Positions 2,155-36,198 of a DNA stretch of 64,000 bases are shown one piece after another. Position 1 is the first letter of the stretch, and each line of letters starts with the position of its first letter. The stretch is taken from contig JABLUY010000017.1 in assembly GCA_013306675.1 (NCBI GenBank), forward strand, positions 210,316 to 274,315. Reading direction: 5' to 3'. The translations under genes were made by a program, and so were the position numbers. This DNA is from Thraustochytrium sp. TN22 (Eukaryota; Sar; Bigyra; Thraustochytrida; Thraustochytriidae). Below the pieces are notes generated by a model. It saw nothing but the letters and a program-made list of their open reading frames with translations, ran no database searches and had not been told where the DNA came from.

Positions 2155-3249
2155 CCATTCGCGCCTCGAACACGCGTGCGCGAGAATACCAACACTCGCT
2201 GCCTGGCTACGTCGATTGTCTGACGTGAACCAAAGCTCTACTCTGGCAGCCAGACAGCCCTGCACGCTGTCTCCTAACTGTCCGGGCTGAGTCGTGGCAA
2301 CTTGAACCATGTGCTCTTCTTTTCGCGTCCGCGAATGTTTTGGTTGCTTTGCTTTCCACTCTCGCCTCCAAGTTTTCTTGCCTGCAGAGGCCTGCTGGCC
2401 AGGGCCCTGCCAGTGCCTTGCGCGCACTCGCACGTGCTCGACGCAGGCCACGTGCTCTCACGGCGTCGCCGGCGCCGCCGCGCTTCTTCTGACAGGCTCG
2501 CGGTCACACGGTCACACAGTCACCGTGACGGTCGCACGCGGCACTAGCCCACTACGCCGTGCAGTGCCCCGCACGATGCCATCACCACGATCGCGCTTTT
2601 CGTCTGCATGTGCACTGCAAGCCGCGCCGCCGCGGACTTCCAAGAGCCGCTTGCGCCGCAGAAATCACGGCGCTCACTGATTTATGAAGCACTGGCCATG
2701 GCAGTGCGCACGCATCATGCACGCGGTGACGGCTGCCGCGCGCCATGCATCCATCTCTGGCGGCGGCGGCGCCGCCTCGCGAAGGCCTGCCCGCGGCGCG
2801 GCGCCTTCCCGCGCTCGGCGCAGTCTGCTCTGCAGCTGAGCGCGCGGCGCGCCCCGCGGAACTTGACTCGAGGGCCGAGCCTCGGCCGAGCGGGCCCGAG
2901 GACCGGGCGCAGAACCGGCGCCGTGCGCAGCGCGGCTCCCAAGTCGGGCCCGCGGCGGCGCGCAACACGCGTATCGCGGGCCGCAAGTGGCGGCCGCGGC
3001 GGCGCAAGTGGCGCAAAGCGGCCGCGGGAGCCAGCCAGCCGCGGCAAGGAGCAAGCCAACTGGAACAGAAGGGCGAGTCACGCGGCCGCGGCGCGGAGAG
3101 GACGGGAGGGGCGCCATCGCCCCGGGGGTTTGAATCGGGCGCGCGGCGGCAGAGCGGTTGGCAGCGCGCGCGGGGCCCGCGCGCGGCGGAGCGGCGGCGC
3201 GCGAGCGGCGGACCGCGCGGCGGCGCCGGCCGGCGGCCCGGGCAGCGGC
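2155..3249. other. Spacer and probable 5' leader of the giant gene
   Basis: The frame of the giant gene is open back to an ATG at 2608. The 214 residues this would add are Arg/Ala-rich low complexity with no domain, typical of stop-poor GC-rich DNA. They would also bury the signal segment more than 280 residues inside the protein. I therefore read this stretch as intergenic sequence plus 5' leader. No other gene is supported here. Confidence 0.55.
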
Positions 3250-6200
3250 ATGGAGCCGTCCATGCGCGGCGCGAGGCAGGCGGACGAGGCGGCGCCAGCG
3301 CGCCCGCGGCGGCGCACGAGGCCAACGACGACGACGACGACCACCACCACGAGCCCGACCTCGACGAGGGCGGCGCCGGCGGAGGAGGAGAGGAGGAGGA
3401 GGAGGAGAGAGGAGAGGAAGGGCTCGGCGGCGAGGCGAGGGAGGCCCGCCGCGGCCGCCGCGCTGCTCGCGCTCCTGCTGCTGGCCGCGCTCCAGGTCTG
3501 CGCGAGTCTGGCGCAGACCGCCTCCTCGGCGACGGCCTCCAAGGCCGTCGAGGAGGCGGCGGAGGAGGGCGTCCAGGCGCAGGGAGTGGCGGCGGCGGCA
3601 GCAGCAGAGGCCGCCGCCGGCGAGAGCCAGGGCGACGTAGACGAGCTCAAGGTCGGTCTCGTCCAGGAGGAGGAGGACCTGGAGGACCTGGAGGACCTGG
3701 AGGAGGCGGAGGAGGATGAGGCGGCGCCGCATCTGCTGGACCTCCTGCAGTCGTGCCGTGCGGACGAGGAGTGCAGGTCCGGCGTGTGCTGCGAGCACTT
3801 CCGCGTGTGCCTGCCGAAGTCATGCCGCGACGGGCGGCTGAACGGCAACGAGACAGGCGTGGACTGCGGCGGCGACACGTGCACGCCGTGCGTGGCGGGC
3901 GCCGGCTGCGAGGTGGACGAGGACTGCCTGTCGCAGCGGTGCGAGTCCGAGTTCAGGCACCACTGTCTGCCGGCGACGTGCACGGACGGGCGCAAGAGCG
4001 GCGCCGAGACGGACGTCGATTGCGGCGGACCGCTCTGCGCGCCGTGCGCGCTGGGCGACGCCTGCGAGGCGGACGACGACTGCCAGTCCGCGCTCTGCGA
4101 CGATGAGACCGGCATGTGCGTGGCAGCCTCCTGCGGGAACGGTGTGCGCGACGCCGACGAGACCGACGTCGACTGCGGCGGCCTGGACTGCCCGGCCTGC
4201 GAGGACGGACAGTCATGCACGGCGAACCGCGACTGCGCCAGCGGCGCCTGCGATGCGGATGCCGGCGTCTGCGTGCCGCGCTCCTGCACAGACGGCGTGC
4301 TCAACGGGAACGAGACCGACATCGACTGCGGCGGCCCGCAGTGCATGCCGTGTGCACTAGGCGCACGCTGCCAGGCGCCGGAGGACTGCGCGGCACTCGC
4401 CTCGCTGCCCGAAGTCGGCGCAGCGCCCGTCCAGGCCACCTGCGACCCGCATGCGCTCGTGTGCACGCCGATCACCTGCCTGGACGGCCTGCTCAATGGC
4501 AACGAGACCGCCGTGGACTGCGGCGGCCGCTTTTGCCCGCCCTGCGAAGACGCCGCCGAGTGCGTGCGCAACGCTGACTGCCGCAGCGGGCTCTGCAGCC
4601 CGGACCTCGGCCTCTGCATGCCGCGCACCTGCCGCGATGGCCTGCTCAATGGCAACGAGACCGACGTCGATTGCGGCGGCCTATGCGGGCCATGCGCCGC
4701 CGGCCGCGGCTGCGCGAGCGCCGCTGACTGCCTCAGCGGCCTCTGCGACCCGACGCTCGGGACCTGCCTCGACGCTTCCTGCGTCGACGGCCGCAAAAAT
4801 GGCCTGGAGACCGACCAGGACTGCGGCGGTCCCACCTGCAGCCGATGCCCGGACGGCGCCACCTGCGCGGCCGACGACGACTGCGTCAACGGCCGCTGTG
4901 ACGAGCACAGCCGGCGCTGCCTGCCAGAGCACTGCGCGAACGGCCAGCTCGACGGCCTCGAGACCGACGTCGACTGCGGCGGCCCGGACTGCGGCCCGTG
5001 CGCCGACACGCGCCTCTGCGAGGCGGGCGCCGACTGCCTCAGCGGCATCTGCGACCAGGACCTCGGCGTCTGCCTTGCCGAGTCCTGCCGCAACGGCCTG
5101 CTCGACGGCAACGAGACCGACGTGGACTGCGGCGGCGGCTGCCGCCCGTGCGCGGTCGGCGGCTTCTGCAGGGCCGATACCGACTGCGCCTCGGGCGTCT
5201 GTGACGACGACCTCGCCGTCTGCGTGCCGGCCACCTGCCGCAACGGCCGCCTCGACCCGGGCGAGGCCGACGTGGACTGCGCCGGCGACTGCGCGCCCTG
5301 CACCGACGGCTCAGCCTGCACGCTCGACGCCGACTGCGTCTCGCGCACCTGCGACGCCGACGCCGGCCTCTGCCTCGCGCCGCACTGCCGCGACCGCCTG
5401 CTCAATGGCAATGAGACCGATGTGGACTGCGCTGGCCCGGACTGCCTCCCGTGCGAGAACGGCCGTCGCTGTCTTGCCAACGCCGACTGTCTCAGCGGCC
5501 TCTGCGACCCGAACACGGCGCGCTGCCTCGACGCGCACTGCGCCGACGGCCTGCTCAACGGCAACGAGACCGCCACGGACTGCGGCGGCCCGGACTGCCT
5601 TCCCTGCGCCGACCTGCGCGACTGCCGCGTCGACGCCGACTGCCAGAGCGGCCGCTGTCACCCGGACGCCGCGGTCTGCATGCCCGCCTCCTGCTTCGAC
5701 GGCGAGCTCAACGGGAATGAGACCGACGTCGACTGTGGCGCTCAGTGCACGCCCTGCGCCGCTGGCAAGGACTGCGACCACCCGGCCGACTGCGCCAGCG
5801 GCCTCTGCGACCCGGACCAGGGCATCTGCCTCGACGCCTCCTGCGTTGACGGCGTGCGCAACGGGCTCGAGACCGCCGTCGACTGCGGCGGCCCCGTCTG
5901 TGCGCGCTGCGCCGACGGCCTTGCCTGCCACTCGCACGCCGACTGCCAGCACGAGCACTGCTGCGAAGTCCACGCCGTTTGTCTCGCGCCGCACTGCGCC
6001 AACGGCGTGCTCGACTTCAACGAGACGGACCGCGACTGCGGCGGCCCGTGCTCCCCGTGCGAGGACGGCTTCCTCTGCGAGCGCAACGCGGACTGCCTCA
6101 GCAACTCCTGCCACGATGGCGCCTGTCTGCCAGCCTCGTGCAGCAACGGCCGCCTCGACGGCAACGAGACCTCCACGGACTGCGGTGGCCCCTTCTGCCC

Positions 6201-9200
6201 GCCCTGCTCCGTCGGCGACCGCTGCGAGCGCGCCTCGGACTGCAACTCGGACGTCGCCTTTTGCGACGCCACCGATGGCATCTGCTACCCGCTCGCCTGC
6301 GCCAACGGTCTCCAAGACGCCGGCGAGACCGACGTGGACTGCGGCGGGCCCGACTGCCCGCCCTGCGAAGACGGCAAGCGCTGCGAGGACGCCTACGACT
6401 GCGCCTCCTCCGCCTGCGACCTCGACACCGGCATCTGCGTGCCGCCCGCCTGCACGGACGGCCTGCTCAACGGTGACGAGACCGGCGTCGACTGCGGCGG
6501 CTCCTGCGCGCCCTGCGCCCAGGGCGTCGCCTGCCGCGCCGACGGCGATTGCGCCGCTGACCTGCGCTGCGAGCCCTTCCGCGGCCTCTGCGCGCCCGCC
6601 ACCTGCTTTGACGGCGTGCTCAATGGCCACGAGACCGGCCTCGACTGCGGCCACGACTGCTCGCCCTGCGACCACGGCTACGACTGCCTCACGGCGCGCG
6701 ACTGCAAGGAGCTCTGCAGCGAAGACCGCGCTACCTGCATGCCCTTCTCTTGCGTCGACGGCATGCGCAATGGCCTCGAGACGGACACGGACTGCGGCGG
6801 CCCGTTTTGTCGCGAGTGCGCGAACCTGCATCTCTGCGCACTCGACCGCGACTGCCAGAGCGGCTTCTGCGACCCGCGCCTCGCGCGCTGCATCCCGCGC
6901 CAGTGCAACGACGGCATCCAGAATGGCAACGAGACCGACGTCGACTGCGCCGGCGGCTGCGCGCCCTGCTCGCTTGACGCGCGCTGCCGCGCCGACCGCG
7001 ACTGCGAGTCCGGCCTGCGCTGCGACCCGCTCCGCACCGTCTGCGCGCCGGCCTCCTGCTTCGACGGCCTCATGAACGGCAACGAGACCGATGTCGACTG
7101 CGGCGGCCCGCACTGCGCGCCCTGCGCCACCGCGCTCGCCGCCTGCGCGCTTGACGATGACTGCAATGGCACCATGGTCTGCGACCCGGCTCTCCAGCAG
7201 TGCCTGCCAGCCGACCCTCTCGAGCGCCAGCTGCTCCTCCTGCCGCCCTCCTGCCGGAACGGCGTGCAGGATGGCGACGAGACCGACGTCGACTGCGGCG
7301 GCCCGCTCTGCCTGCCGTGCAACCGCACCGGCGCGGCCTGCGCGGCCGCCGCGGACTGCGCCGATGGCCTGCTCTGCGCCGCCGCCTCCAGCACCTGCGT
7401 GCGCGACACCTGCGTCAATGATGTGCAGGACGGTCAGGAGACCGACGTGGACTGCGGCGGGCCCGACTGCGCGCCCTGCGCCGACAACGCCGCCTGCGCC
7501 GACGCGCGCGACTGCGCCAGCGCGGTCTGCGACCCGGCCTCCGGGCTCTGCCTTCCCGGCACCTGTCACGATGGCATACACAACAACGCCGAAGCCGATG
7601 TCGACTGCGGCGGGCCCAACTGCGACCGCCGCTGCGCCGAGCTTTCCACCTGCAATGCGGACCAGGATTGCGTCGATGGCCTGATCTGCGACCCCGACGC
7701 GGCGCGCTGCGTGCAGCGTGACTGCCTCGGCCGCTGCGGCGGTGACCACTGCCCGCCGTGCGCTGTCGGCCGCGCCTGCGACTCGCCTTCCGACTGCGCG
7801 TCGGCCGCCTGCTCCGCGCACTCTGGCCTTTGCGTGCCCGCGCACTGTGGCAACCGCGTGCAGGACCACGACGAGGTTGACGTTGACTGCGGCGGCGCCA
7901 GCTGCGACCCCTGCGCGGCCGGCGCCGCTTGCACGAGCGACGCCGACTGTGCCTCCGGCCTGGCCTGTGCAGCGGCTGACTCCACCTGCCGCCCGGCCTC
8001 CTGCCAGGACGGCGTGCAGAACGGCCTCGAGACCTACACGGACTGTGGCGGCCCACACTGCGCGCCCTGCACGGCTGTCGGCGAGGCAACTTGCTTGCTG
8101 GACCGCGACTGCGCCTCTGGCCTCTGCAGCGCCGACGGCGAGTGCATCGCCAAGACCTGCGCGAACCACGTCAAGGATGGCGAGGAGACCGACGTGGACT
8201 GCGGTGGGCCCTTTTGCGCTCCCTGCGAGAATGGCCGCCGCTGCACCGACAGCGACGATTGCCGCACCGCCTTTTGCGACCGTGTCCTCGCCGTTTGCGC
8301 GGACCCGGCCGACGCCGACGACTGGATCGTCGACTGCGACGGCAACCGCCTCACCAACCTGGAGTGCGCCTCGGCCCGCCTCGGCTACACATCCTGCGAC
8401 CAGCACCTCAACGACAACGTCTGCGATGACGGCGCCTTCGTCTCGGACGCCGGCGTCGCCATCAGGCTTAATTGCGCTGCCCACGAGTGCGACCGCGGAG
8501 CTTGCGGCGCCTGCCGCCAGCTGAGCCAGGGCCGGGGCCAAGACCAGCTGCAGGGCAGTGCCCAGGCGCAGGCGCAGGCGCAGGCGCAGGCGCAGGCGCG
8601 CTACTCACTCCCGGGCGTCAACGCCGCCGCGCTGCCAGACTCCGAGGCTGGCGCCGCGTGGGCCGCCAACTATGCCGGCCTCAGCAACGGCGCATCGCTG
8701 GCCTTCTCTGGGCCGCCAGAAATCGTCACGCGCCTCACGCAGCTCCACAAGTTGGCAGACGTTGACTTCTCCCAGTACGACGACGCGGACACCGGCTTCG
8801 TCTACGGCGATTTCTTCCGCAATGTCGACTACGACAGCCTCGCACGCCCGGCCTCGCTGTGCCAGCCGCGCTTCGGCTGCCGTCTCTCCACGGACCTCGC
8901 GCCAGCTATTGACGCTTTTGCGCACGTTATCATGAGCTTCTACGACTTTAGCTCCATGGAGCAGGACGAGCGCTTCCTCGTGGAGGGCAGCCGCGACCCG
9001 GCAAGCCGCGTGCTGCTGGACGGCTTCTATCTCGCCGCGCGCTCTGCGGACCAGCCCAAAACGCTCACGCTCACCGGCAGCCTCCGGGTCGGCCGCCTGA
9101 GCGTCGTAGGCAAGGGTGGCGTCCTCGACCTGACCGAGGCCGAGTCCGTCCATCTGGAGCAGGGCCTGGTGGTCCTTCCCGGCGGCACCGTGCGCCTGGG

Positions 9201-12200
9201 CGGACCCATGGCGCTCACTGGCTCGGACCGCGCCTTCCTGCTCGTCCTTGGCTCGATGGAGATCGAGGCTGCCGGTGACGTCGACCGGGAGCACCATGAG
9301 CTTCAGGATCTCGAGCACTCCTCGGCGCTCGTCCCGTTGCTGGACCTCGCCCGCATCGACGTCTTTGGGGCCGCCCGCATGCACCACGGCGCTGCCGCCC
9401 AGCTAACGGCGCGCACCGCCTTCTCCGTCATGCCGGGCGCCTCGCTCGAGCTCTTCGGAGATCTCGCGCTGCGCTGCGCCTCGTCCGCACGAGACTGCCG
9501 TCTGCGCAACCTCGGCTTGCTTCGCGTTATGGGCGCCGCCACCCTCGATGTGCACCTGCTCAACGACGGCCACCTCGATCTGCAGTCTGGCGTCTTTCGC
9601 GCGGCTTTTGGGCTCACAAACCGCGGGCTCGTCACCGTCGCACCGACTGCTGTCTGGGAGGCGCAGTCCGCGCGGCTCGATTTGCGTGGCGCGCGCTTCA
9701 TGGAGGATGACTTCGGGCTCAAGGCGCTCCTCGCGCAGACCGAGCCCGTCGACAAGGCCTCTCTACTGCTGCAGCAGCAGCTGCTCCGCTCCCGGGTGCT
9801 CCGGGCCCAGGTTCTCGTGCGCGGCGTCCTGCGCCTCGCGGACCAGGCCTCCCTCCATCTCGCTGACGGCGCGCTGCTCTCTGCTGTGGGCCCCTGCGCC
9901 CTCGAGCTGCGCGAGGGCTCCCGCACCAAGGTGCTCGCCGGCTCTGAGATTGTCCTTGCGCCTGCCGCCGACGCCTCGGCGCCCGCCTGTGCCCGCGAGA
10001 CCCCGCTGCTGCACGGCGAAATCCGCCTGGCCGGCGCTGGCGCCGTGCTTCGCGCCTTCATTCCCGATTCGACGTCCCGCCTCCACATTGACGGCAAAGT
10101 TCTCTTCTCGCAGGGCGGCGCCGTGCTGGTGGAGCACCCCGGAAGCCTCGTTGGTGCTGCTGCAGCCGATCCCACCGTGTCCGTGGCGCGCAGGTCCCTC
10201 TCCGCCACCGGCGCAGGTACCAGCGCTACGACGATGACCTCGGGCGCCAATACGGTCTTTAGTAACCCGGTGGTGGCGGATGGCGACCTTGTCATCCCTC
10301 AGGGCCAGAGCGTGACCTTCCGCTCGACGCTTGTGCACACGGGCGCACTCACCGTGCTGGGCTCGGTCACCTTCGAGGACTACACCCTCATCGCGCACCG
10401 CGTGAGCAACGAGGGTCGTCTGATCGTGGGCTCTGCCGGCCGCGTCATGCTCGCCGGCATGTATTCCGGCGACGGTTTTCTCAAGGTGAACGGCCAGCTC
10501 TACTTTGGCGGCTCTGGCGCCGTGGGCGGCGACCTCGTCAACACCGGTCGTGTGCACGTCGGCGTCGAGTCGCGCGCCGTTCTCGCGGACTTTGAGCGCA
10601 ATCTCTTCGCCTACGACACCGAGACTGCCTCGGGCCGCCGCCTGCTCGCCTGCGATGGCCAGCCGCACACCACGCACGTGCGCTTCGACGTTGGCGCCGC
10701 CTCCGGTGTCGGCGTCGAGTGGACGCTGCCCGTTCATACCTGCGAGCGCACGCCCGACGAGCCCACACTGCTCGCCGCGCTCTCGCGCCAGCTCGGCCTC
10801 GAGTCCGTCGATGGTCTCTCGCTGCGCGCTGGCAGCGGCAGCGGCGACGGTGCCCATACACTGCGCCGCTCGCTGGCGCGCGCCTCGGGCGCCTGGCACC
10901 AGCAGCGCGAGCTCACGCCCGAGGTCAGCCTCGTGGCGCCCGCCGCGACGCTTCCCGTGGGCGCCCTGGCGAGCACCTTTGCGCAGGCCGACGGCGTCCT
11001 GCTCGACATCGCGCGCGCCGCCACCGTGGACTTCCACGGCCGCGTCCTCGACGCGGGCGGCATCCTTGTCGCGGACGAGGCCGACGTTGGCCTCCACGGG
11101 ACGGTGTCCTTTGACCGGCCCATGCAGAACTTTGGCCGCCTCTTCATTGGCCCCACCGCCCACGTCGATTTCGCCCGCGCGCTCGACAGCGCCGGTAACG
11201 TCACCATTGAGGGTAACATCACCATCGCCGATGAGACCATCTATTCGCAGGACGTATACCTGCGCGGCTCCATGCATGTGACGTCCACGGGCAATGTTAC
11301 CTTCGAGTCGCTCCTGGAGAACTCCGGCACGATCACCGTCGACGAGGGCGGTGGCGTTGCCATGTTCGGCGCCGCCACCTTTGATGAGGAGTCCTTCTTC
11401 ATTTGCGACGGCGAGCTGGAGCTCGGCTACGGCAGCTCACTCGTGCTCTATGGCGACTTTGCCGTCACCGAAACAGGAACCACAACAGTGGACGGTGCGC
11501 AGATTGACGTCTATTCGCCGGCCGTCTACTTTGACGGCCTGTACTTCCAGACCCGCGGCGCCTTTGTGAGCGTCGAGGACGGCGGTGTCCTGGTCTTCGA
11601 GGGCGAGTTCTCCTCGGACGAGAACGCGCAGATCTCCGTGGAGACCAACGGTAAGCTTCGCTTCCAGGGCTCCTCAATCTTCGCGCAGGACCTCGTCACG
11701 GGAGCCGCATACCGCTCTGCTACCGACCAGTACGTGGCGCTGTCCAACAAGGGCACCCTCGTGCTCTCGCGCACCGCGACGCTCACCATGGACGGCACCG
11801 AGCTTTCAAGCACCGGCTCGCTTGATGCCAAGGAGGGCTCCACGCTGGCCTGCTCTTCGTCCGACGCCAAGCTCACTCTCAATGACGCCGTCGTGGACGG
11901 CCTGTTGGCCGTCAACAACACCTGCGTCGTCACCTTCACCGGCCACAACGTCGTGGGCGGCTCCGTCATGGTCTCGTACGACGCGGTCACTGTCATTGCC
12001 GCGACGCGTCTCACACTCGACCAGGACGCCCTGTGGACCTCGGACGGCGTGCTCACCGTAGAGCAGGACGCCACGTTTGTGGTCAAGGGTCTGCTGCGCA
12101 GCCGCGGCCACGCGCTCAACCGCGGCCGCCTCATGCTCGCCTCGCGCCTGGCCATGCCCAGTGTCATCACCTCGACGCTGCAGAGCTACGGCTCTGTGAT

Positions 12201-15200
12201 GGTCTCTGGCGCAGCCGTGCTGCGCGGCACCAACGCGCAGTTCAGCGGCGACCTCATCGTGGATGTCGGGGCCGCACTTTACCTGGACGAGGCGGCCGCC
12301 GTGGTGGTGGCCGGCTCGCTCTCGCACGACGGTCTCCTGAACCTCGGCGCTTCGGGCCAGGCCTCCTTCACCTGCGCCTCGCCCGAGTGCTCCTCTACGT
12401 CTGACAGCCAGCTCGAGGGCCTCGGCGCGCTCACGCTCTCCGAGGGCGCCGAGTGGGACCTTCTTGGCACGGTGCAGGTGCCCGTCGGTGCGGAGCAGTG
12501 GCACATCGTCCAGGGCGCCACGCTCTATCTGGGCGGTGCAGCCTCTGTTGGCGCATCGGTGCAGAACGAGGGCACGCTCGTGGTCACCACGGACGGCGAC
12601 GCAGTCTTTCTGGACTCGATTGTCTCGACTGGCCTCCTTCAGGTCGACGGCGCCGCCGACCTCCTCGGCTCTAGCGCGGACCTGGACGGCGAGATCGCCG
12701 GCGCCGGCTACCTTGTGGTTGGTCCGTCGACCAAGGCCGACGTGCTGGCGGACGGCACCCTGCGCGGCGGCATCGAGGTGCGCGTCGGCGGCAGCGCCGT
12801 TTTCTGGTCCTCGTCCTTCACGCTCGAGGGCCTCACCAAGATCGATGGCGACATGTTCATCAGCACCGGCGCGCAGGTCGCCTTTCGCACGGGCGGCTCT
12901 GGTCGCGTGCAGCCCGGCGCGGCGCAGCTGGTGACTACGGGCCAACTCCGCAACGACGGCAACCTGAGTATCGGCGTGCTGGCGGACCTCGGCGGCAACT
13001 TGGAGTCCACCAGTCTGCTCATTGTGGAGCCTGCGGGCGAGGCCACGGTCGTGGGCCTGCTCGAGGTGCAGGAGGGCGAGCTCTACGTGCGGGATGGCGA
13101 GCTCATCATCGACGCCGAGGGGCAGTTGTCCGTGCTCGACACGGCTGCCCTGGTCTCTTCCGATGCCGCTTTTGTTCAGGTGGCCGGCTCACTCACCATC
13201 GCGTCCGGCGCCACCGCGGATCTGCGCGGCCAGGCCGCCTCCGCCTCAAGCGCCATTGTGCACGTTCTCGGCGAGCTCGTGCTCGGCGCCAGCGCTGACT
13301 TCCAGGGATTCACCGAGGTCGAAGGCCTCCTCGTGCTCGCCAACGACGTTGCAGCCACCGGTACGAGCAGCCGCGGTGCAGTCTTCCACGACGTCTTGCA
13401 GAATGGCGGCCAGCTCTGCGCGCAGGCTGGTGCGCGTCTGCAGATCGACGGCGGCCTTACCTCCACGGGCGCCATTTACGTCATGCCGGCGGCGGAGATG
13501 ATTTTCACGCTTGACAGCGTGTCCAAGCTCACTGCGTCCACCGAGGTGGAGCAGCCGCAGGTGGTGAACCTCGGTTCGCTCATCGTCGACCAGGACGCCA
13601 GCCTGGCCAGCGAGGTTGACTTTGTGAGCACTGGCGAGATTGAGGTGCACGGCACACTGGAGCTGGACGGCGGCGCCATTCAGCTGTCCGAGACGGCGCG
13701 CGCCATTCGCAATATGGTGCCCGACCTTTTGGCAGCGGACCTCAACGATATCTCCGACAGCGATGTCGGTGGCCTCTCCGTTATGGAGGACGGCACGTTG
13801 ACCGGCTGGGCCACCGTGGAGGGCGACCTCGTGAGTGAGGGCACCGTGCGCGCTGGCTCTGAGGAGGAGCCGTCCGCCGTGCTCTCCGTCTCAGGCACTT
13901 TTACTGCGCGCACGACGGCCATTCTACAGGTCGCGCTGGCCCTCTCCGACGACAGCGAGTCCTCCATGCCGGCCTACGGCGTCCTTGACGTGGCGGGCGC
14001 GGTCGACCTCGCCGGGACCGTGACGGTTGTGTCGGACCGCTTCTACAGCGACACGGTGCGCCTCGCACCGCTCCTGGCGAGGCGGAACAACCTGGATCTG
14101 TCCACGGAGACTGTCTTCAGCGCCTCTGGCCCGGAGGATTACGAGTTCACCGCGGACGGCTTCGTGGACCAGACCTCGGTGAGCGGCACCCGGCGCGCCG
14201 TCCTTTTGGTGGACCTGCAGAGCTCGCACGCCGTGGTGGTCGGCTCGCGTCGCTCGCTGAGCGCGGAGGCCGTGCTGCACGCCGAGGACCTCCTCGCCAG
14301 CGACCTCGACAGCAACGTGACCCTGGGCGCCAGCCCGCAAACGCCGGACGGGACTCAGCTCGTGGACCTCTGGCTAGGGGGCGTCCGCGGCATCGAGCCT
14401 AGCCGCGTGCGCCGCATCGTGCACACAATCGAAGGGTACCTGGGCATGGTGCCGACGGCGCAGCTGCAGAAGAAGACGCGCATGCCGGCCTTCTTCGAGG
14501 CGTATGTGGCAGAGGTCGTCTCACGGCGCTCGGGCCGTTCTGCGCCCGCCTCCTTCCGCGGCGGCCTGCAGCTCACGCTCGCCTTTTCCTGCCCGACGCT
14601 GGTCGAGTGCCGCTCGTTTTGCACGACCCTGCGCGAGCTGCGTGCCGGCATCGCCCGGGACCTCGTGGAGCGCCTGCACGCGCTCGGCGTACACACCTTT
14701 GCGATGCGCTCCACCACCTGCGCCTCGGTGCACGAGCAGGCACATGTCGCCTCGCTCACGCCGCCGGTTTGCGTGTCGGACGGCCTGCGCGGCACGTTTC
14801 TGACGCCGGGAGTGGAGTGCCACGAGCCCTGCACCTGCGTGGGCGAGGCTTGCTCCTGCTTTATGCGCAGCGGCAAGTGGGCCGGCTGCGAGTGTGGGCC
14901 GTTCGCGGCCGCCGGTGCCTCTTCCCTAGCGACCGCGCCGACTTCCACGGTCGCCTCGCTCGGTGACCTGGCGCATCCGCAGGTGGCGTGCGCCGCCAAC
15001 GGGCTCGGCGCGCCGCGCGCCGGCACGCCGTGCGCGTTCCCGTTCTGGTTCGATGGCCAAATGCACCACTCGTGCATCGGGTCCGGCTGGGGCGGCGATG
15101 GCTTCTGCGTTATCCAAGGTGAGCTGGCCGGGTGCAAGTGCGAGTCGGCCACGGCTGCAGCTGCGGCCGCGGCCGCGGACGGTGCCTCTACGGCGGACGC

Positions 15201-27200: not shown

Positions 27201-30200
27201 ATCGCGCGCACAGAGCATGACGTCCGTGGTGCGCGCCGAGGCATCTGGCTTCGCCGGCCTGCACCATGATACCCGCCTCGAGTATGCATACGCGCTTGCG
27301 CCCGTGGGCACGGCGCCGTGCAACGAGAAGGCGCCACGCCTGCCGCTGTCGACAGCCTTTGGCGCGGCGATGCAAACAGACGCGGTACTGCCCCCTGGCG
27401 AGTGGGTCATTCTGGCCCTGGCGCGGGCTGCGGACCGGGCGGTGGACCGCGAGACGGCTGCCGAGGCCTGCGCGGCGTCTGCCGTTGTCTCCGTCTCGGC
27501 GCTGGATCTGGGCCATGGGTCGCTGGAGTCTGCCCTCGGTGCGGAACTGTCGGCGCGCGCCGGCGGCGCTCAGCGCGTCCTCCAGCTCTTCGGCATCTGG
27601 GCCGCCGAGCTGTACCCGCATCTGCGCGTCGATGGCGCCTCGAGCGAGGCGACAGAGAGCTGCATGGCGGACGCCGACTGCGGACCTCTAGGCTCGTGCG
27701 AGGCGGATGCCTCGTGGGCTGCCTCGCCTCGCTATGTGTGTCAGTGCCCCGCGTCCCGGTATGGTCAGCACTGCGAGCACTTCGTACCGGCGGCCGAGGC
27801 GGAGGAGGCCTTTCTGTCGGCGCTCCTTGAGGCGTTGCGTGGCGGCGCGGTCCCGGCGCTGCCCGCGATGCAGCTGCTGGCGCAGACTCCGGCGCGACCG
27901 GAGGCGGCGGCGCGACGCATTGAGCTTGGGCGCGCGGCGCTGGCGCAGGCCGACTTTGCGGCTGGTGACGAGGAGTGCCAGGTCGCACTGGAGGGCGTCG
28001 TGGGCTCGGCGCTGGACAGCGTGAATCGGCGCCTGCTGGAGTCCGCAAGCCCCCTGCCAGATCGGCTCTCGGCGTGCGGCACGGCGGCGGCCGAGAAACT
28101 CCACGCGTCTTCGGTCCTCCCGCTGGTGGCGGCGCTGCCTGCCGGGACGCAGTACGTCCTGGGCCGGAGCCTGGCGACCCAGACCGTGGCGGTGGAGGGC
28201 ACTCACGGGAAGCACTCGAGCGTGCTACTGGCGCACGACCCATACCTGTGCGAGACGGTCTCGCCGGTGGTGATGATCCCCTCGGGTGCTGATGCAGGCG
28301 CAGTCCGGGTGCGAGGCCTCCCGGCGCTGGGCAGCCGATACGAGGGTCTGATGTGCATGGGGCGCGGCGCGGACGGACACGTGCTGCAAGGCGTGTGCGA
28401 GGGCACGCCACAGGACTGCACTTGCAAGGTGCCGGCCGGCGAGACCATGTATGTGGGGCTGTACGCAGCGTCCGCCCCCGGCATCGAGCTGGTGAAGCTG
28501 AGTGGCGGCGGTGAGAAGCTGGACGATGCGGATGCGTGGGAGGTCGCGGTGTCGCTCTCGTCCGCGCCGCATGGTGCCCAGGTTCAGGTGTACCTGAGTG
28601 GCAGCGAGGCGGGCGAGATGATCGCGTCGGCAAGCGGGTCGCGATGCGCCAACGTGGTGACGGGCAAGGTGGGCCAGGCGTGCACGCACGCACTCTCAGA
28701 CTGTACAAACCCGCTCGTGGAGACCTGCGTGTCAATGCCAATGGCGCGGTCGCTCATTACCTTTTCGCCGCAGCTCGTGACCTTTGGCAAGGGCAACTGG
28801 AGCGTCCCGCAGACGGTCCGTGTGAAGCCTGCCAAGGTGTCTCTAGCCGGGCCTGCGCTGCTGAGTGCCCGGGTCGTGGCCACCGTGACGGCTTCGGACG
28901 ACCTCAGGTACATGCACGTAAATCGCTCGCTGTCGGTCGCGCTGACGGCCATGAGGACACCGGCGCTCTCGGCCTCGCCTTCGAGTCTGCAGCTTTCCGA
29001 GGGCGATGCGGGCTTTTCTACGGTTGTGGTCGGCCTTGGCGCCGAACCTCGCGGTCCGGTCCGGGTTGAGGCGGTCTTTGACGCGGATATGCTTGAAGTG
29101 AGCCCCACGGTGGTCAAGGTGGACCCGCAGGCGTGGGCCTCTGGCGCGAGCTTCCGTGTGCGCGCCGTAGACAATCAGGTCACTCAGGCGCTCGCGCGTT
29201 ACCCGGCGGCGCTGCGATTCCGACTGCAGCAAGGCAGCCTGGAGGCCGACCCGTTTTTCGCGGCGGCCGCCAGCAACGGCGGCGATGTGGAGGTGGCGAC
29301 GACGATCGTTGACGACGAGACGGCTGGCCTGGTGCTGAGCCAGTCCTCGCTGACGCTGGTGGAGGGCGGCACGCCCGCGCACGTGGGCGTGCGGCTGACG
29401 CAGAAGCCAAGCCGCGGCGCCGTCTTTGTGCGCATCGTGGCCCGCGACGGAACATGTCTCTCGCCGGAGCATGGCACCGGCGCACGGCGGGAGAGCTGCG
29501 TGTCGAGCGCCGAGTGCATGCGCGGCTTCGAGTGCGTGCGGTCGACGGGGCTCGCGGTGGCCGCCGGCGCGCCGGCCGTGCTCCGCTTCGACGCTTCAAA
29601 TTTTGACGTCGAGCAGCGCGTGCAGCTGCAGGCGTTCGCGGACGATTTCGTGGAGGGCGCGCACGAGGATGTGGTGGTGCTGGAGGTGTCCAGCGCAAAC
29701 GACGACTCCTTCTCGCGCGTCGAGGCGGCCTCGCTGCGCGCCACCATTCTTGAGGAGGCGACCGCGCGCGGCGGCGTTGTCGTAGAGGCGGCACCCGGTT
29801 CCAAGACAGCGTCCTTGGGCGTGGTCCGCGTGGCTGAGGGCGGTAAGCCGGCGCAGTACGGCGTACGGCTGCAGACTCGGCCCCTGGGACGCGTCGGTGT
29901 GACGGTGCACGTGGACGCGGACCCGGTGGCGGCGTCGATGCTTCACCTGCCGGAGGGCGCGGCACTGTGGTTCGACATGCACAACTGGGCGACGCCGCAG
30001 GTGGTGCGCGTGGAGGCTCGTGACGTGGACGCCTACTTCCAGCCGGACCACGCCCATGCAACCTTGGTGCACTCGCTGGAGTCCGCCACGGACGCCGCCT
30101 ATGCGTCCCTGGGCGTATATCGCGACGCGGATGTCGCCGTGGAGGTGGTGGACGACGACGTACCGGCGCTGCGCGCGGACGTCTCGCAACTGATGCTGGA

Positions 30201-33200
30201 GGAAGGCGAGGCTACCTCGTTGCGGCTCAAGTTGGCGGCGCCACCGAGCGCGGGCCGCGACGTGGAGGTCCGCGTCAGCGTGCCGCATGGGCGCTGTGTG
30301 TCTGCGGACCAGGGCTTCTCGTCAACGGTGTGCTCTTCGAACGCAACGTGCCGCGCGTCCGTGGCGGAAGGCGCGTGGTGCTACGCGAACGCGCACGCGC
30401 TGGTGACGCCGCAGGTGCTGACGTTCTCAAGCTCGACATGGAATGCGTGGCAGACGGTGACGATCGAGGCCTTCGACGACCACGTGGTGGACGGCGACCT
30501 GGCGGGCGCTGTGGTGCGCGTGACGAGCTCGAGCTCTGAGACGTCTTTTGACGGCCTCGGCCTGCGCATTGCCCTGAGCGTGACTGACATGGACGCGGCC
30601 GGCCTGAGCTTTGTCGCGGGCGGTCTCGCGGCCGGCGGAAGCGACGACCGGCAGATGTTGCACGTAGTGGAGGGCCGCAGCGTGCACTACGGCGTGTCGC
30701 TGTCGTCGCGCCCGCTCCTTCCCGTGCAGGTGTCGGTGCTGGAGTGGCCGCTCCGCAGCGAGGCCCAGGTGGCGGTGGAGCCGACAAAGCTGGAGTTCCA
30801 GCCTGAGGACTGGGACAAGATCCAGTCGGTGGTCGCAACGCCGGTGGTGGACGGCCTGTACTGGCCCAAGGCGGCAGCGAGCGGCGGCGACGGCGTGGCC
30901 GCGCTCCGGCATGTCGTGGAGTCCACAGACGTCGCGTATCGTCAGCTGGCGTTCTTGGATCTCGGGCTGAACGTGTCGGAGAACGAGGCGCCTCTGGCGC
31001 GCATTGGGCTGGGCTCGGCGGAGGCCGGCGTCCTGCGTGTCTTTGAGCAGGATGCCGACGACGAGCAGGCAGACGCGGCGTGGTACGAGGTGGCGCTTCT
31101 GGCACCGCCGCCTGCGGATGTTCCGACGGTTGTGCACGTCGACGCGACTTCGGGCTTTTGCACGCAGAGCGTGGTGGGCGTGGAGGTCTCGCGCGTCCTG
31201 GTGGCCGGCAGTTTTTGCTCGGAGCATGCGGACTGCGAGGCGGGCCAGTTGTGCCGCACGGGCACCAAGATCAAGGCGGAGCCTGCGAAGCTGGTCTTCT
31301 CTGAGCAGAACTGGAACGTCCCGCAGCGCGTTTCGGTGCGCGCGTGGGACGACGACGTGGCCGAGGAGTCCGTCCACCTGGGCCGCATTACGCACCGTGT
31401 GACGCGCCACGAGGCGGAGCTCGGGTCTGTGGACAGCGTGCTGGTTGAGATCGTGGACGACGATGTGGCGGGCATTGCGCTGGATCGCGGGTCGATCCGT
31501 GTTGTGGAGGGCGAGGACGCGGACGCTTCCTTCCAGGTACGCCTGACGTCGGAGCCGCTGTCCCCGGTGCTGCTGGAGCTGGACGCCGGCCACGGCGGTT
31601 TAGTGACGGTGGTGCCGAGCACGCTGGAGATTGCGCCCGCCGTGTGGGCGACCTGGCACACGGTTCGCGTGCGTGCACGCGAGGACGAGGTTGCGTCGGG
31701 TAAGCCGCTGGCAATGCAGCTCGTGCAGCGCGCGTTGTCACTGGACCCGGCGTACAACGGGCTCGCGCAGACGCTCGAGGTGGAGCGCATCGACAGCCGC
31801 GAACCGGAGGTGCGCGTCACGTTGGACGCCCCGGTGGCGAGCGAGGAGGGCCTGGTGGTGGCGGAGGGCGGCGCGGCCGCCCAGTTCTCCATCGTGCTTG
31901 GCTCGCGCCCCGTAGCGCCGGTGCGCGTGCGCGTGGATGCATCGCGCGGGTACTGCCGAAAGACGCAGCAGGCTTATCAGACGGTGCCAGACTTTGACCG
32001 GCCGTGCGGCGTTCGCAGCTCGGGCGGTATCCAGAAGACGCTCGTGGGCGCGAATACTGCCGCCGCGGCGGCAGCAGGGGCGGCGGCCTGCGATTGCATG
32101 CTGGGCCTCGGCGCAAACGTGGACCGGCGATGGGTGGACTTTTCCGCGGAGGACTGGGACCTGCCAAAGGTGGTGACGGTCGCTGCGGAGGAGGATGACT
32201 ATGCTGAGCAAGCCACGCACCCGGCGTGGGTGCGTGTCTCGCTGGACGCGGCGACCACGATGGACGCCACGTACCGCGCGCACTACAACGATGTGGAGGC
32301 GATCGACTGGGTCAGCGTGAGCATCCTGGATAATGATGAGGCTGGCCTCACGTTGGCTCCCGGCGTGCAGGAGCCGATCCGTATCGAGGATCAGGCACAG
32401 GAAGTTGCAGGGGTGCGCCTGCGCAGCCGGCCTTTCGCGTACGTGGACGTGGCCATGCGCGCCGATGTGCCCGTTCAGGTGACTCCCGATGGTGCGCGTA
32501 TTACGCCGGAGCAGTGGGACGTGCCCGTGAGCGTGGTCGCGGTCTCGAACGCGCTGGGTGGTGCGGCGATGGACGCCTTCGGCGAGGGCCTGAAGCTGCA
32601 TGTGGCGAGCCTCTCGTCTCGCGACCCGGCGTACGCGCCAGACGTCGTAGCTTCGCTGCAGGTGGCGGCGGAGCTGAGCGCCGACCGCAGCGTGCGGGTG
32701 AACGTGGTGCCTGCCGGCACGGCGCCGGGCGGTGTGGTGTCCTCGACGAGCAGCGTGAGCCTGCGCGTGGTGGAGGGAGACGCGAGCGGGTCGGCCTACG
32801 CGGTGGTTCTCAACGCGGAGCCGCAGGCGAACGTGCGCGTCAGCGTGGTGGCGCCCATCGGGCACTGCGCTGACGCGAGCTCCGGGGCACCGTCTTATGC
32901 GCAGGGCTGCGCAGAGGGCTGCGGCAGCGGGCTCGTGTGTGTGCCCGGCACGGGCGCGACCGTGGTGCCTTCGGAGCTGGTCTTCTCGCCCGCGAACTGG
33001 AGCTTGCCTCAGGAGGTGGTGGTCCGCAAACCGGAGAACGCGGTGGACGAACGCGCCGGCGTGGCGCAGCCGCATGTGCGCACGTGGTCGATCCGGCACG
33101 AGGTGTCTGCAGGCGCGGACGCGCGGTACGACGCGCTGAGTGCGGTGCACGTGCCGGTGTCGCTGGTGGACACGGACGAGGCTGGCGTGATCATTCAGAT

Positions 33201-36198
33201 CGGCGACGCCGCGGCCGTGACCCTGGGAGACGGCACAACCTCCGTTCGGACGGACGCCGTTGAAGGCACGGCCCTGGAGGTGGGCGTGCGGCTGGCGTCG
33301 CAGCCGTGGGCTGAGGTGAGGGTGAGCGTGGTGGTTGCGATGCCAATGCCGACGGCAGCAGCCACGGCGGCGTCAGCGGCGTCGAAGACGCTGCTGTCGC
33401 GGTCGGCAGCGGAGGACCGCGAGGCGGTGACCGAGGAGGTGACGTTGGCTGGCACGCTGATCTTCACGGCGAGGACGTGGAATGTGACGCAGCGAGTGCA
33501 TGTGGAGGTGCCGGAGAATGACCTGGTGGACCCGACGGCGAGGTCCGGGGCAATTCGCGTGGAGACGGCGTCGCGCGACGCGCTGTACGCGTCGTCGTCG
33601 CACGAGGTCGGCCTTGACGTGCTAGACAACGAGTGCCGCGTCGGCTCGTGGGGCCCGTGGTCGGTGTGCGATCGCGCATGCGGGCCAGGCTTCGAGCGGC
33701 GGCACCGCGAGGCGTTCTTCCCGAATGGCGGCGGCGGCGGATGCCCGTACGAGATGGTGAGCCTGCGGCCGTGCAACCTGGGCTCGTGCACGAGCCTGTC
33801 GCTGGAGGACGGGTCAACGTCGTTGTCGTCGTCGTCGACTTCGTCGGGGCGGCCCATGATGCTGGAGCTGGGCTTCTTCTTCGGCGTGGCGATGCAGTCG
33901 GATCGCCGCGTGTTGGCGGAGGAAACGGCGAGCTCGGTGCACGCGAAGCAGATCAAGGAGTCGCTGGCGCGCGCCCTGGATGTGTCGACACGCCAGGTGG
34001 AGCTGGCGAGCGTGTTTCTGGCGCGCACCGAGAACGAGACGGACGTGGTGGGCGTGCGCGCGGTGGCATTTGCAAACGCGACACGCGGTGTGCTGGAACT
34101 GGAGACAGCGGCTCGCCGGCAGCTGTCGGAGCCGACGAGCGCGCTGAGCGAGGCCCTGCCGGGCCGCCTGCTGGTGGGCGCGGATGACGTGGTGATCGTG
34201 CGGCATGCGGCGAGCGACTTTGGCTACTTTTGCGTCGCGTCGGACGCCGAATCGGACGCGCCCACGCACTCGCCCACCATGGTGCAGGAGCTGCACTCGC
34301 GGTCGGGCGGGCCAGTGCAGCTGGCGAGCGAAGAGGACTGCCTGGCGTGCGACGCGAGCGTGGTGCAGTACTGCTGCCCACTTGGCGCGGTCTCGAACGG
34401 GACGTGCCTTGTGGGCCTCGAAGACGTGCCGGCGGCATTTTGCGCGCACAGCGCGATGCCGTTGCGCGCGTGCGCGGGCGCCGGGCCGTTCTCGTGGCGC
34501 CTCGCTGCAGCGGGCAGCACGGCGGGCCTCTTGGGCGCCGTGCTGATGCTCTTTGCCTACCTGCAGCTGCGGCCTGCGCCGTGGCGGTCACCGTCCAGGG
34601 GCAAGGGCAAGGGCAAGAGGCCTCGGCGGCGGCTGCTGAGCGCGTACTGGGGCTTCTTTGGCGCCCGGCAGGCGAGCGAGGAGGCCATGGGCAAGAGCAG
34701 CCGCGGCACGCGGCGCTTCGGCACGCACTCGGAGTCGGCGAACTCTACAGATGTGCCAAGCGATGCAGGCCACGATCGAGAGCGGGATCTGCTGCTGGAC
34801 CCGGCGCGCGAGATCGCGGCTGCGACCACGACGGCCGTGGCGGGTGACGAGGACCGCGACGCGGCTGGGGCCGCCGAGTCGGCCCCGCCTGGGTTCGCGC
34901 GTGCGTTCGCGCAGCACGAGCCGCCTTCGGATGAGGCCTTGGCGCCGGCAACGCGTGTACTGGTCTTTTACGACTACGACTCGAGCTACTACGTGGGCAG
35001 TGTGCTGCGTCACAACGTGCTGGATGGCACGTACTCGATCCTCTTCGATGATGGGGACGAGGATGACGCTGTCGAGCTGTCGAGCATGCGGCTCATGGCC
35101 TCGGTGGCAGCCTCCAGCACTGGTGGGGCGAGCGGCCGTCGTGAGAGTAGCGGCGGCGCACGCAGAAGCAAGAGCGGGGCAAGCAGCATGCGCAGTGGCA
35201 GCAGCGGCGGAGGCAGGGCGAGCCTGCGAAGCGCGGGGCAGCAGAGTCGCGCAAGCGGCAGCGCGATGGGCGGCCTGCGCGGCAGCAGCACGGCGCTGGC
35301 GTTGGAGGACGCGCTGGCCCACGGGGGCGACGCGAGCTCCCAGGCTGGGTGCTCGATTGCCTCGGGCGATATTGTGGAGGTGCTGGACGAGCGTAGCGAG
35401 CGGTGGCAGCTGGCCCGCGTGCTGGAGGACGCGGCCAGGGGTGATGGCGAGCGCTTCCGCGTTGCCTTCGACGACGGCACGGTGGAGTCAAACGTGCCGC
35501 GGCAGCGCATCCAGCGCTTCTTGCCGGTGAACACGCCGGTGCGCGTGGTGTATGGCGGTGTAGGCGCGGCCTTCCAGGGCGTGGTGGCTGCCATCGTTGG
35601 CGACGGCGAGTACATCGTGCGCTTTTCGGACGGCGCCGAGGAGCCGCTGCCGCGCCAGTGGCTGAGCGCCGACGACGGGTCCGCGCTGGGCGCGGACGAG
35701 GTGGACTTTGAGGACGACATGCTCAACTTCCTCCTGCGCGGCGGCAAGGAGGACGACGATGAGGACGACGACAACGACAACAACCACAACAGTGGGAGGC
35801 GGCGGGGTTCTGAGCACGAGAGCTTGTATGGGGAGCACGAGGTGGCTTCGGAGGCCGGCAAGCGGCTTCTTGATGGCCACGCCGAGACTGACCGCGCCTG
35901 GGACTCCCTGGTGCGCGATGGTTTCTCCGTGCGGCTCGACTCGCGGCGGGGACTCGGACTCAAGCTCGGCATGCTCCGATCGCGCCTCGTGGTCGTGACG
36001 GGCTTCCTCCCGCTCGCGGACGGCCAGCCGGGCCCTGCAGAGGCCTGCGGCGCTCTCCGTGTGCGCGACGTGCTGCTCGGCATCGACGGCGAATCGGTGC
36101 GTGGCTGGGACTTTACCCAGGTGGCCGACAAGATCAAGCAGGCCGACCGTACCATCACCCTGCGCTTCGGCCGCATTGAGACGCAGCGTGCTCCGTGA
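3250..36198 (+). CDS. Giant multidomain single-pass surface protein (about 10,982 aa)
   Basis: A single uninterrupted 33-kb frame encodes a predicted type I membrane protein. A basic n-region (residues 1-66) precedes a hydrophobic signal or anchor segment at 67-88, with a plausible cleavage after ASLA. The ectodomain has: about 29 cysteine-rich repeats (168-1683); a beta-helix-like region (about 1935-3590); two FN2-like modules (about 3914-4052); NWxxPQ Calx-beta-like repeats (about 4197-7835 and 8415-10128); a REJ-like stretch plus an EGF module between them (about 7840-8177); and a TSP1 module (10129-10180). One transmembrane helix (10418-10440) is followed by a basic stop-transfer run. The cytoplasmic tail has three Tudor/SH3-like barrels and a C-terminal PDZ-like domain. 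The start at 3250 was preferred over 2608 because it puts the hydrophobic segment nearer the N-terminus. Domain names rest on pattern recognition. Cell adhesion, matrix contact or cell recognition is inferred from architecture only. I recognise no named orthologue. Confidence 0.85.
3448..3513 (+). other. Signal peptide / signal-anchor segment of the giant protein
   Basis: About 22 residues of Ala/Leu (core [12 protein letters not shown]) follow an Arg/Lys-rich run. A small-residue site (ASLA, then Q) follows. With one clear C-terminal transmembrane helix and cysteine-rich ectodomain modules, a cleaved signal peptide with an unusually long n-region is the consistent reading. An uncleaved anchor cannot be excluded. 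Confidence 0.7.
3753..8298 (+). repeat. About 29 tandem cysteine-rich repeats ([17 protein letters not shown] type)
   Basis: Each unit is about 50 residues and follows the pattern C-x-D/N-G-x3-G-x-E-T-D-x-D-C-G-G-x2-C-x2-C, then two shorter Cys pairs around D-C-x-S-G-x-C-D. I count about 28 complete copies plus one truncated copy near 7,721-7,760 that lacks the ETDVDCGG half. About 12 copies contain NET, an N-glycosylation sequon, at the same place. Similar [15 protein letters not shown] units occur in secreted proteins of bacteria and protists. Disulfide bonding and the Asp/Glu pattern suggest a rigid, possibly calcium-binding rod, which is inference. A further Cys-rich stretch without the full motif runs to about 8,517. 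Confidence 0.9.
8563..8599 (+). repeat. In-frame (GGCGCA)n hexanucleotide repeat coding (Gln-Ala)n
   Basis: Perfect hexanucleotide repeat inside the giant gene, giving a run of about six Ala-Gln dipeptides between the cysteine-rich stalk and the next globular region. It is a likely hotspot of length variation between alleles. Confidence 0.85.
9055..14030 (+). other. Beta-helix-like region of the giant protein
   Basis: About 1,650 residues almost free of cysteine are built from short rungs such as GTLVV, GSLTI, GLLQV and GDLIV, alternating with Asn/Asp/Gly turns roughly every 20 residues. This is the look of right-handed beta-helix (pectate-lyase or autotransporter-passenger type) folds. It is known in adhesins and surface enzymes, but no catalytic signature was recognised here. 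The assignment is by composition and periodicity only. Confidence 0.6.
14989..15405 (+). other. Two fibronectin type II-like modules
   Basis: Two cysteine modules (14989-15147 and 15250-15405) share the order G-x3-C-x-F-P-F/I, an aromatic/Gly centre, C-I, then G-x-C-V and G-C-x-C. This matches the FN2/kringle-like pattern ([18 protein letters not shown]). A related, more divergent cysteine cluster precedes them at about 14768-14903. In animals FN2 modules bind collagen and glycans. The ligand here is unknown. Confidence 0.6.
15838..26760 (+). repeat. Calx-beta-like NWxxPQ repeats, block 1
   Basis: About 24 repeats of roughly 110-190 residues. Each begins with a strand like GLVLSxxxLxVxEG, continues with YxVRLxSxPxxxVxV, and has the signature F-x-P-x-N-W-x-x-P-Q-x-V-x-V followed by A-x-D-D-x-x-E and a D-x-x-Y segment. 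This resembles the Calx-beta/cadherin-like beta-sandwich group, whose acidic loops often bind calcium. Many repeats carry a small cysteine insert before the NW motif. Two members near 24,060-24,560 have lost the NW signature. Confidence 0.75.
26779..27600 (+). other. REJ-like (polycystin-type) region
   Basis: This break in the repeat array contains a stretch of the type [20 protein letters not shown], then a Cys-x3-Phe segment, LG-x4-C-x-W-x-D-x2-T-V-V-V-T-L-G, and a later V-x-P-x-x-x-L-x-V strand. This is the pattern of REJ regions in polycystin-1-like and sperm receptor-for-egg-jelly proteins. No GPS motif or polycystin channel domain is present, so only the extracellular module is suggested. 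A profile search is needed to confirm it. Confidence 0.45.
27661..27777 (+). other. EGF-like module
   Basis: Six cysteines are spaced as in EGF, with the closing C-x-C-x5-Y-G-x-x-C segment ([12 protein letters not shown]). It lies directly after the REJ-like region. The roughly 240 residues after it (to about 28,490) include another cysteine cluster I cannot assign. Confidence 0.7.
28491..33630 (+). repeat. Calx-beta-like NWxxPQ repeats, block 2
   Basis: About twelve repeats of the same type as block 1. They alternate strictly between a long form, with a cysteine insert (pattern G-x-C, C, x-C, C before the V-x-P strand), and a short form without cysteines. The alternation implies growth by duplication of a two-repeat unit. 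Confidence 0.75.
33634..33789 (+). other. Thrombospondin type 1 module
   Basis: The motif W-G-P-W-S-x-C-D-x-x-C-G-x-G-x-x-x-R, followed by C-P and R-P-C-N-x-x-x-C, is characteristic of TSP1 repeats. It is the last ectodomain module recognised before the membrane-proximal region. Confidence 0.88.
34501..34569 (+). other. Transmembrane helix of the giant protein
   Basis: About 23 uncharged residues (core [16 protein letters not shown]) are followed immediately by a strongly basic run ([10 protein letters not shown]). This is the stop-transfer pattern that places the N-terminal side outside and the C-terminal tail in the cytosol. Confidence 0.85.
34948..35676 (+). other. Three Tudor/SH3-like barrels in the cytoplasmic tail
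   Basis: Three segments (34948-35100, 35365-35526, 35527-35676) share the pattern of a valine-rich strand, W/Y-x-x-G/A, then Y/F-x-V-x-F-D-D-G-x-E. This is the hallmark of Tudor-like or 'agenet' small barrels. The first two are separated by a Ser/Gly/Arg-rich linker that could be phosphorylated. Tudor-like domains are usually nuclear or RNP modules, so their presence on a membrane protein tail is unusual. Confidence 0.6.
35911..36186 (+). other. C-terminal PDZ-like domain
   Basis: The last ~90 residues start with [16 protein letters not shown] (the carboxylate-binding-loop position). They continue with [19 protein letters not shown], the classic G-D-x-I/L-L-x-I-N/D-G-x-x-V pattern, and end with a helix and the strand [12 protein letters not shown] domain at the end of the tail would link the giant protein to cytosolic partners. 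Confidence 0.75.

Follow-up and report, generated by a model that had tools for sequence, protein, structure and literature searches.

An apparently intronless 33-kb gene for a predicted giant type I surface protein in Thraustochytrium sp. TN22

A 64,000-nucleotide stretch of DNA from Thraustochytrium sp. TN22 (the window) carries on its forward strand one giant open frame that is likely to be a real, conserved gene, apparently without introns. We lean towards reading its product as a long type I cell-surface tether or adhesin anchored to a cytosolic scaffold, because of its unbroken, coding-like frame, its domain matches, a colinear relative (P0005), an Ig-like model of its NWxxPQ (NW) repeat, the presence of that repeat in other giant proteins, and analogues in oomycetes. 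The protein unites module types shared with bacteria, the NW repeat and a Myxococcota-type eight-cysteine module (NGxETDxDCGG), with FN2 and TSP1 modules and an odd Tudor-PDZ membrane tail; neither the NW repeat nor the cysteine module matched a model in the Pfam copy scanned. New here are the predicted Ig-like fold of the NW repeat and its occurrence in giant, apparently bacterial proteins and in one oomycete protein. Features are listed by window position, with residues counted from the ATG at 2608 (residue 1).

2608..36198, + strand: single open reading frame; stop-free, coding-like GC3, P0005 colinear over the first half
3448..3516, + strand: signal-peptide-like hydrophobic helix, residues 281-303; hydropathy 2.42, the protein's highest
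3823..8322, + strand: array of about 30 eight-cysteine modules of about 51 aa each, residues 406-1905; motif counts
8329..8514, + strand: cysteine-rich link between array and solenoid, residues 1908-1969; well conserved in the P0005 alignment
8905..14247, + strand: beta-solenoid-like region, residues ~2100-3880; sequence pattern, conserved in P0005
14992..15405, + strand: two FN2-type modules, residues ~4129-4266; Pfam PF00040, E 4.4e-10, 2 stretches
15817..33639, + strand: 36-40 NWxxPQ repeats, residues 4404-10344; own HMM
33634..33789, + strand: TSP1 domain, residues 10343-10394; PF00090, 24.1 bits (cut-off 21.6)
34501..34557, + strand: single transmembrane-like helix, residues 10632-10650; hydropathy 1.89
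34948..35091, + strand: Tudor-like segment 1, residues 10781-10828; PF18115 Tudor_3, 32.9 bits (cut-off 25.8)
35365..35511, + strand: Tudor/Agenet-like segment 2, residues 10920-10968; PF05641 Agenet, E 3.8e-5, below cut-off
35524..35688, + strand: Tudor-like segment 3, residues ~10973-11027; own Tudor HMM, E 0.0012 (weak), and PF23614, E 2.1e-5, below cut-off
35920..36177, + strand: C-terminal PDZ domain; PF17820 PDZ_6, 30.5 bits (cut-off 27)

The open frame and a colinear relative

Counted from its first ATG, the frame runs through 11,196 codons without a stop (11,216 aa from stop to stop); a start at ATG 3250, residue 215, would leave 10,982 aa, or about 1.15 MDa. No stop was found where composition predicts 181-235, and the longest stop-free frames in five first-order Markov surrogates of the window were 383-501 aa. 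GC3 lies between 0.80 and 0.93 in all 23 blocks of at most 500 codons, the first of which, holding the doubtful 5' end, is little informative since all three codon positions are GC-rich there. The sequence-only reading had claimed an uninterrupted 33-kb frame for about 11,000 residues, and these results bear it out. Misassembly by the collapse or joining of repeats is unlikely because the window contains no Ns and, among 42 pairs of internal DNA repeats, none of at least 100 bases is more than 71.8% identical. The gene lies inside a 274-kb contig (assembly of 37.9 Mb in 453 contigs). The GC content of the window is 68%, and the published values available to us for five labyrinthulomycete genomes are 43-47%.

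That the frame is a real, conserved gene is likely because P0005, an unnamed 6,793-aa protein in ENA, is colinear with it from the cysteine array through the solenoid and FN2 modules into the NW repeats. Like the giant, P0005 has, in the same order, a signal-peptide-like start, an eight-cysteine array, a solenoid-like stretch, FN2 modules and NW repeats (25 cysteine-pair matches and 18 NW matches); identity is 36% over 3,669 columns from the array to the end of the solenoid and about 24% from FN2 into the NW repeats. Unlike the giant, it has more FN2-like modules (by eye) and ends within the NW repeats, so that its record is without TSP1, transmembrane helix and tail, and the conservation seen in this alignment reaches the NW repeats and stops short of those parts. 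We consider it very improbable that several adjacent genes, or exons separated by in-frame introns, have been read as one frame: the uncertain 5' end and the end of P0005 at 6,793 aa would suit such an artefact, but GC3 holds throughout, Ns are absent, the colinearity crosses the boundaries between array, solenoid, FN2 and NW repeats, and NW repeats lie on both sides of the interruption in their run. About 66 residues separate ATG 3250 from the signal-like helix, whereas in P0005 the signal-peptide-like sequence comes first, which makes another start codon, or an intron near the 5' end, possible.

To our knowledge, eukaryotes very rarely have unspliced single frames as long as 33 kb. The lack of introns looks ordinary in this genome because it holds other giant open frames (7,573, 3,698, 6,937, 3,096, 6,738, 4,026, 3,380, 3,062 and 2,761 aa), including a second NW giant (C288 68002-85503, reverse strand; 5,834 codons read) that has a signal-like start, 24 NW matches and a hydrophobic helix near residue 5011, followed by a charged, coiled-coil-like stretch. 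To judge by these cases, giant open frames that lack evident introns, and giants with NW repeats, recur in this genome and are no single oddity. Within the window, a PA28-type proteasome activator gene (1132-2154, forward strand, 340 aa) lies upstream of the giant as a single frame, and a 960-aa myosin with head and TH1 tail (50297-53179, reverse strand) is likewise unbroken, as fits an intron-poor eukaryote. The lack of introns and the size had both been called exceptional; the former is weakened by the other giant frames, the myosin and the PA28 gene, and the latter is extreme but not unique, given the Saprolegnia proteins discussed below. Elsewhere in the genome, the 6,937-aa frame (C410 91415-112225, forward strand) gave 18 Tudor-like matches, a single motif picks out 14 nearly identical Tudor repeats in tandem in a 2,696-aa frame (C104), and the frames of 4,026 and 2,761 aa (C79 and C75) combine several hydrophobic helices with short runs of cysteine modules.

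The eight-cysteine array, solenoid-like region and FN2 modules

Motif counts in the array gave 28 motif starts, 27 complete modules by regular expression and 30 DC[GA] motifs. Among the matches listed from prokaryote genomes, a relative is encoded in at least 495 of 574 stretches that fit the pattern, and the 79 loci retained share 41-56% identity over it, which places the giant's copies within a Myxococcota module. By their titles, these loci belong to Myxococcota groups (54), Deltaproteobacteria (10), uncultured bacteria or proteobacteria (9), archaea (4) and other bacteria (2); to judge from these sequences, the module is widespread in prokaryotes and common in Myxococcota. No NW match at E <= 1e-3 occurred in the 79 stretches (at most 6.5 kb each) around these loci, and the profiles of the cysteine module and the NW repeat are unrelated. 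The module weakly resembles cystine knots or knottins; a PDB sequence search with a module pair returned a single antibody chain (E 0.023), which we take as chance.

In the region that follows the link, a periodicity of 6-8, 14, 20 and 28 residues in glycine and hydrophobic positions makes residues ~2100-3880 look like a beta-solenoid. No PDB sequence matched this region, and none of the three candidates scored in the own genome was a second copy. Between the FN2 modules and the NW repeats, an FN3-like pattern read by eye at residues 4300-4400 found no support in Pfam.

The NWxxPQ repeats

An HMM built from the giant's own repeats gave 40 matches in the NW region, 38 above 10 bits and 36 above 50 bits. 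The run is weak near residues 7106-7430 and interrupted near 7998-8612. Fifteen of 36 repeats contain at least four cysteines, which in the examples inspected lie in an inserted loop, and many repeats have acidic ends such as V-x-V-x-D-D-D (by eye). The AF2 model of one repeat (pLDDT 83.8, pTM 0.77) predicts an Ig-like sandwich, and Foldseek listed CALX-CBD1 among its matches (TMt 0.66).

This likeness raised Calx-beta (PF03160) as a candidate identity, which we rejected while keeping the likeness of fold: one of 35 repeats matched at E 0.0018 and the others not at all at E <= 1. Profile-profile comparison of the NW repeat with Calx-beta gave a probability of 19% when four Calx-beta domains of the own genome were aligned and 46% with one exchanger. 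Calx-beta was also absent at E <= 1 from six repeat pieces of related proteins (P0001-P0004, P0006 and P0007), where the best match was LapA (7.2e-4, below cut-off); the records of P0001, P0002, P0004 and P0006 list PF03160 somewhere. No Calx chain was among 50 rows of VIA structure matches to the NW model, though the repeat may still have that fold. Searching PDB sequences with the NW profile gave five weak matches, the best a designed Ig domain (E 0.003), and NCBIfam returned no family in any of three pieces covering NW and cysteine parts. No paper on the NW motif strings was found in the literature searched, which is not proof of absence.

The non-NW insert at 26575-28527 (residues 7990-8640) had no Pfam match, and neither a REJ-associated-like pattern (residues ~8060-8190) nor an EGF-like one (residues 8352-8392), both read by eye, was supported by Pfam. 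By eye, the insert also resembles the segment that follows the NW repeats of P0007, a likeness that is not significant.

Topology and the predicted cytosolic tail

Simple hydropathy suggests a type I, single-pass protein, with a predicted signal, one transmembrane-like helix and a putative cytosolic tail of about 540 aa; its strongest peak is at residues 281-299. There are 47 N-glycosylation sequons in the ectodomain (residues 301-10630) and one in the tail. The TSP1 segment scored 37.4 bits against PF19028 (cut-off 41) and matches thrombospondin-1 chains in PDB. Domain scans, HMM and motifs bear out the cysteine repeats, FN2, NWxxPQ and TSP1 modules of the ectodomain that had been proposed beforehand. 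The beta-helix in that proposal agrees with the periodic pattern, which is a sequence pattern alone and found no PDB sequence match. Its type I topology agrees with the signal-like helix, the one TM-like helix and the colinear relative, tempered by a modest TM value on the hydropathy scale and weaker peaks at residues 3216, 8037 and 10980.

The size, the repeats and the 47 sequons would also suit a structural or protective glycoprotein of a coat, wall, scales or flagellar hairs, with no specific adhesive binding, and giants of Saprolegnia have been proposed as hair-bundle components (in the accessible text of PMC5771568). Instead, the TM-like helix and the tail behind it, with its PDZ domain, point to a link to the cell interior, and we regard a structural role of this kind as unlikely.

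The tail had been described as three Tudor-like barrels plus PDZ: the PDZ domain and the first Tudor segment exceed their cut-offs, and segments 2 and 3 remain below theirs. The PDZ segment also scored 22.5 bits against PF00595, just under its cut-off of 23.2, and matches PDZ chains in PDB. No other frame of the own genome matched both Tudor and PDZ parts of the tail (11 matches), and a homologue search with the tail, which scored the 8,000 candidates with the most words in common, returned one Tudor-repeat protein alone. Tudor domains are familiar mainly from nuclear readers, which is a poor fit for a membrane tail and counts against the tether reading. A phagocytic or prey-recognition receptor, whose ectodomain would bind bacteria or particles and whose Tudor-PDZ tail would recruit uptake machinery, is in our judgement quite unlikely; the PDZ tail is in place, and the accessible part of PMC8163842 lists a TSP1 orthogroup among those that it scores for lifestyle in MAST stramenopiles, but no lectin-like domain, nor any other defined domain for particle binding, turned up in the pieces scanned.

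Relatives in other organisms

The homologue search, with residues 1201-11196 as query, scoring on the last 1,297 residues and coverage of proteins 0.55 to 1.75 times 9,996 aa long, reduced 4,031 candidates to 7 proteins. A further homologue search returned none, missing even the known relative P0005. That few further relatives were found means little, because the searches were limited by length and by words and one of them missed even P0005.

P0001-P0004 and P0006 have 20-44 NW matches each and, unlike the giant, no cysteine-module or Tudor match in any of the five. Two of them have autotransporter-like barrel ends (by eye), and judged by their protein ends these NW giants are apparently bacterial. 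P0007, a putative transmembrane protein of Phytophthora cinnamomi (6,147 aa), resembles the giant in its 10 NW matches; the segment after these resembles giant residues 8041-8300 by eye, with no significant BLAST match. It differs in carrying PF00335 and PF02010, which we take to be tetraspanin and REJ, and several TM-like stretches (by eye), with no cysteine-module or Tudor match. None of these limited searches matched the whole architecture of the giant, above all its Tudor-PDZ tail, so the earlier remark that such a layout was known from no named protein stands uncontradicted by searches that were few and limited in reach. The literature searched yielded no paper on giant intronless thraustochytrid proteins, which again does not prove absence.

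Discussion

On the tether reading, the N-terminal signal-like helix would take the protein into the ER, and the 36-40 Ig-like NW repeats (roughly 150 nm by our estimate if fully extended) together with the beta-solenoid would hold the eight-cysteine array far from the cell. The disulfide-rich array of about 30 modules could then form a binding tip, with matrix or carbohydrate contacts perhaps added by FN2 and TSP1 modules, and the one TM helix would pass load to the cytosolic tail, in which Tudor-like segments and the PDZ domain may dock to a scaffold at the cortex. ER entry, binding tip and docking are steps that we infer beyond the sequence anatomy, just as the sequence-only reading had inferred its role as adhesin or recognition receptor. 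Against the reading stand, besides the Tudor domains, the modest hydropathy (1.89) of the TM helix, the end of P0005 before TSP1, TM helix and tail, the tail search that gave a single Tudor-repeat protein and the further homologue search that came back empty.

Among known systems, the Calx-beta repeat proteins, such as the Na/Ca exchangers, have the Ig-like sandwich that is predicted for the NW repeat and differ in that Pfam Calx-beta matches one of 35 NW repeats. ADGRV1 is another protein with Calx-beta repeats, an adhesion GPCR with a seven-TM domain and a GAIN domain; we rejected this type for the giant, which has one TM-like helix near its C-terminus and no seven-TM or GAIN match in the pieces scanned with Pfam. 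A protist analogue of integrins or cadherins, a single-exon megadalton receptor with a tip of about 30 cystine knots on a solenoid and an Ig-like rope and with a Tudor-PDZ tail for cortical docking, is a doubtful extension of the tether reading; if it held and the host is a labyrinthulomycete, the receptor might serve as a tether for the ectoplasmic net, a structure for which PMC12221091, in its accessible part, gives thraustochytrid candidate proteins.

Giant proteins are also predicted in an oomycete. The accessible text of PMC5771568 describes predicted secreted giants of Saprolegnia parasitica (SPRG_19863, 9,440 aa; SPRG_05384, 6,547 aa; SPRG_03974, 5,297 aa) that contain FN3 domains and are expressed more highly in cysts than in mycelia; with a 936-aa TSP1 protein they were proposed, without functional proof, as components of attachment-hair bundles. 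The same paper and PMC3869178, as far as these sources were accessible, also cite an adhesin of Phytophthora that carries TSP1 repeats. The Saprolegnia giants and the giant described here are alike in size and in being predicted extracellular, and differ in that the former are described by their FN3 domains; the two are set side by side by description alone.
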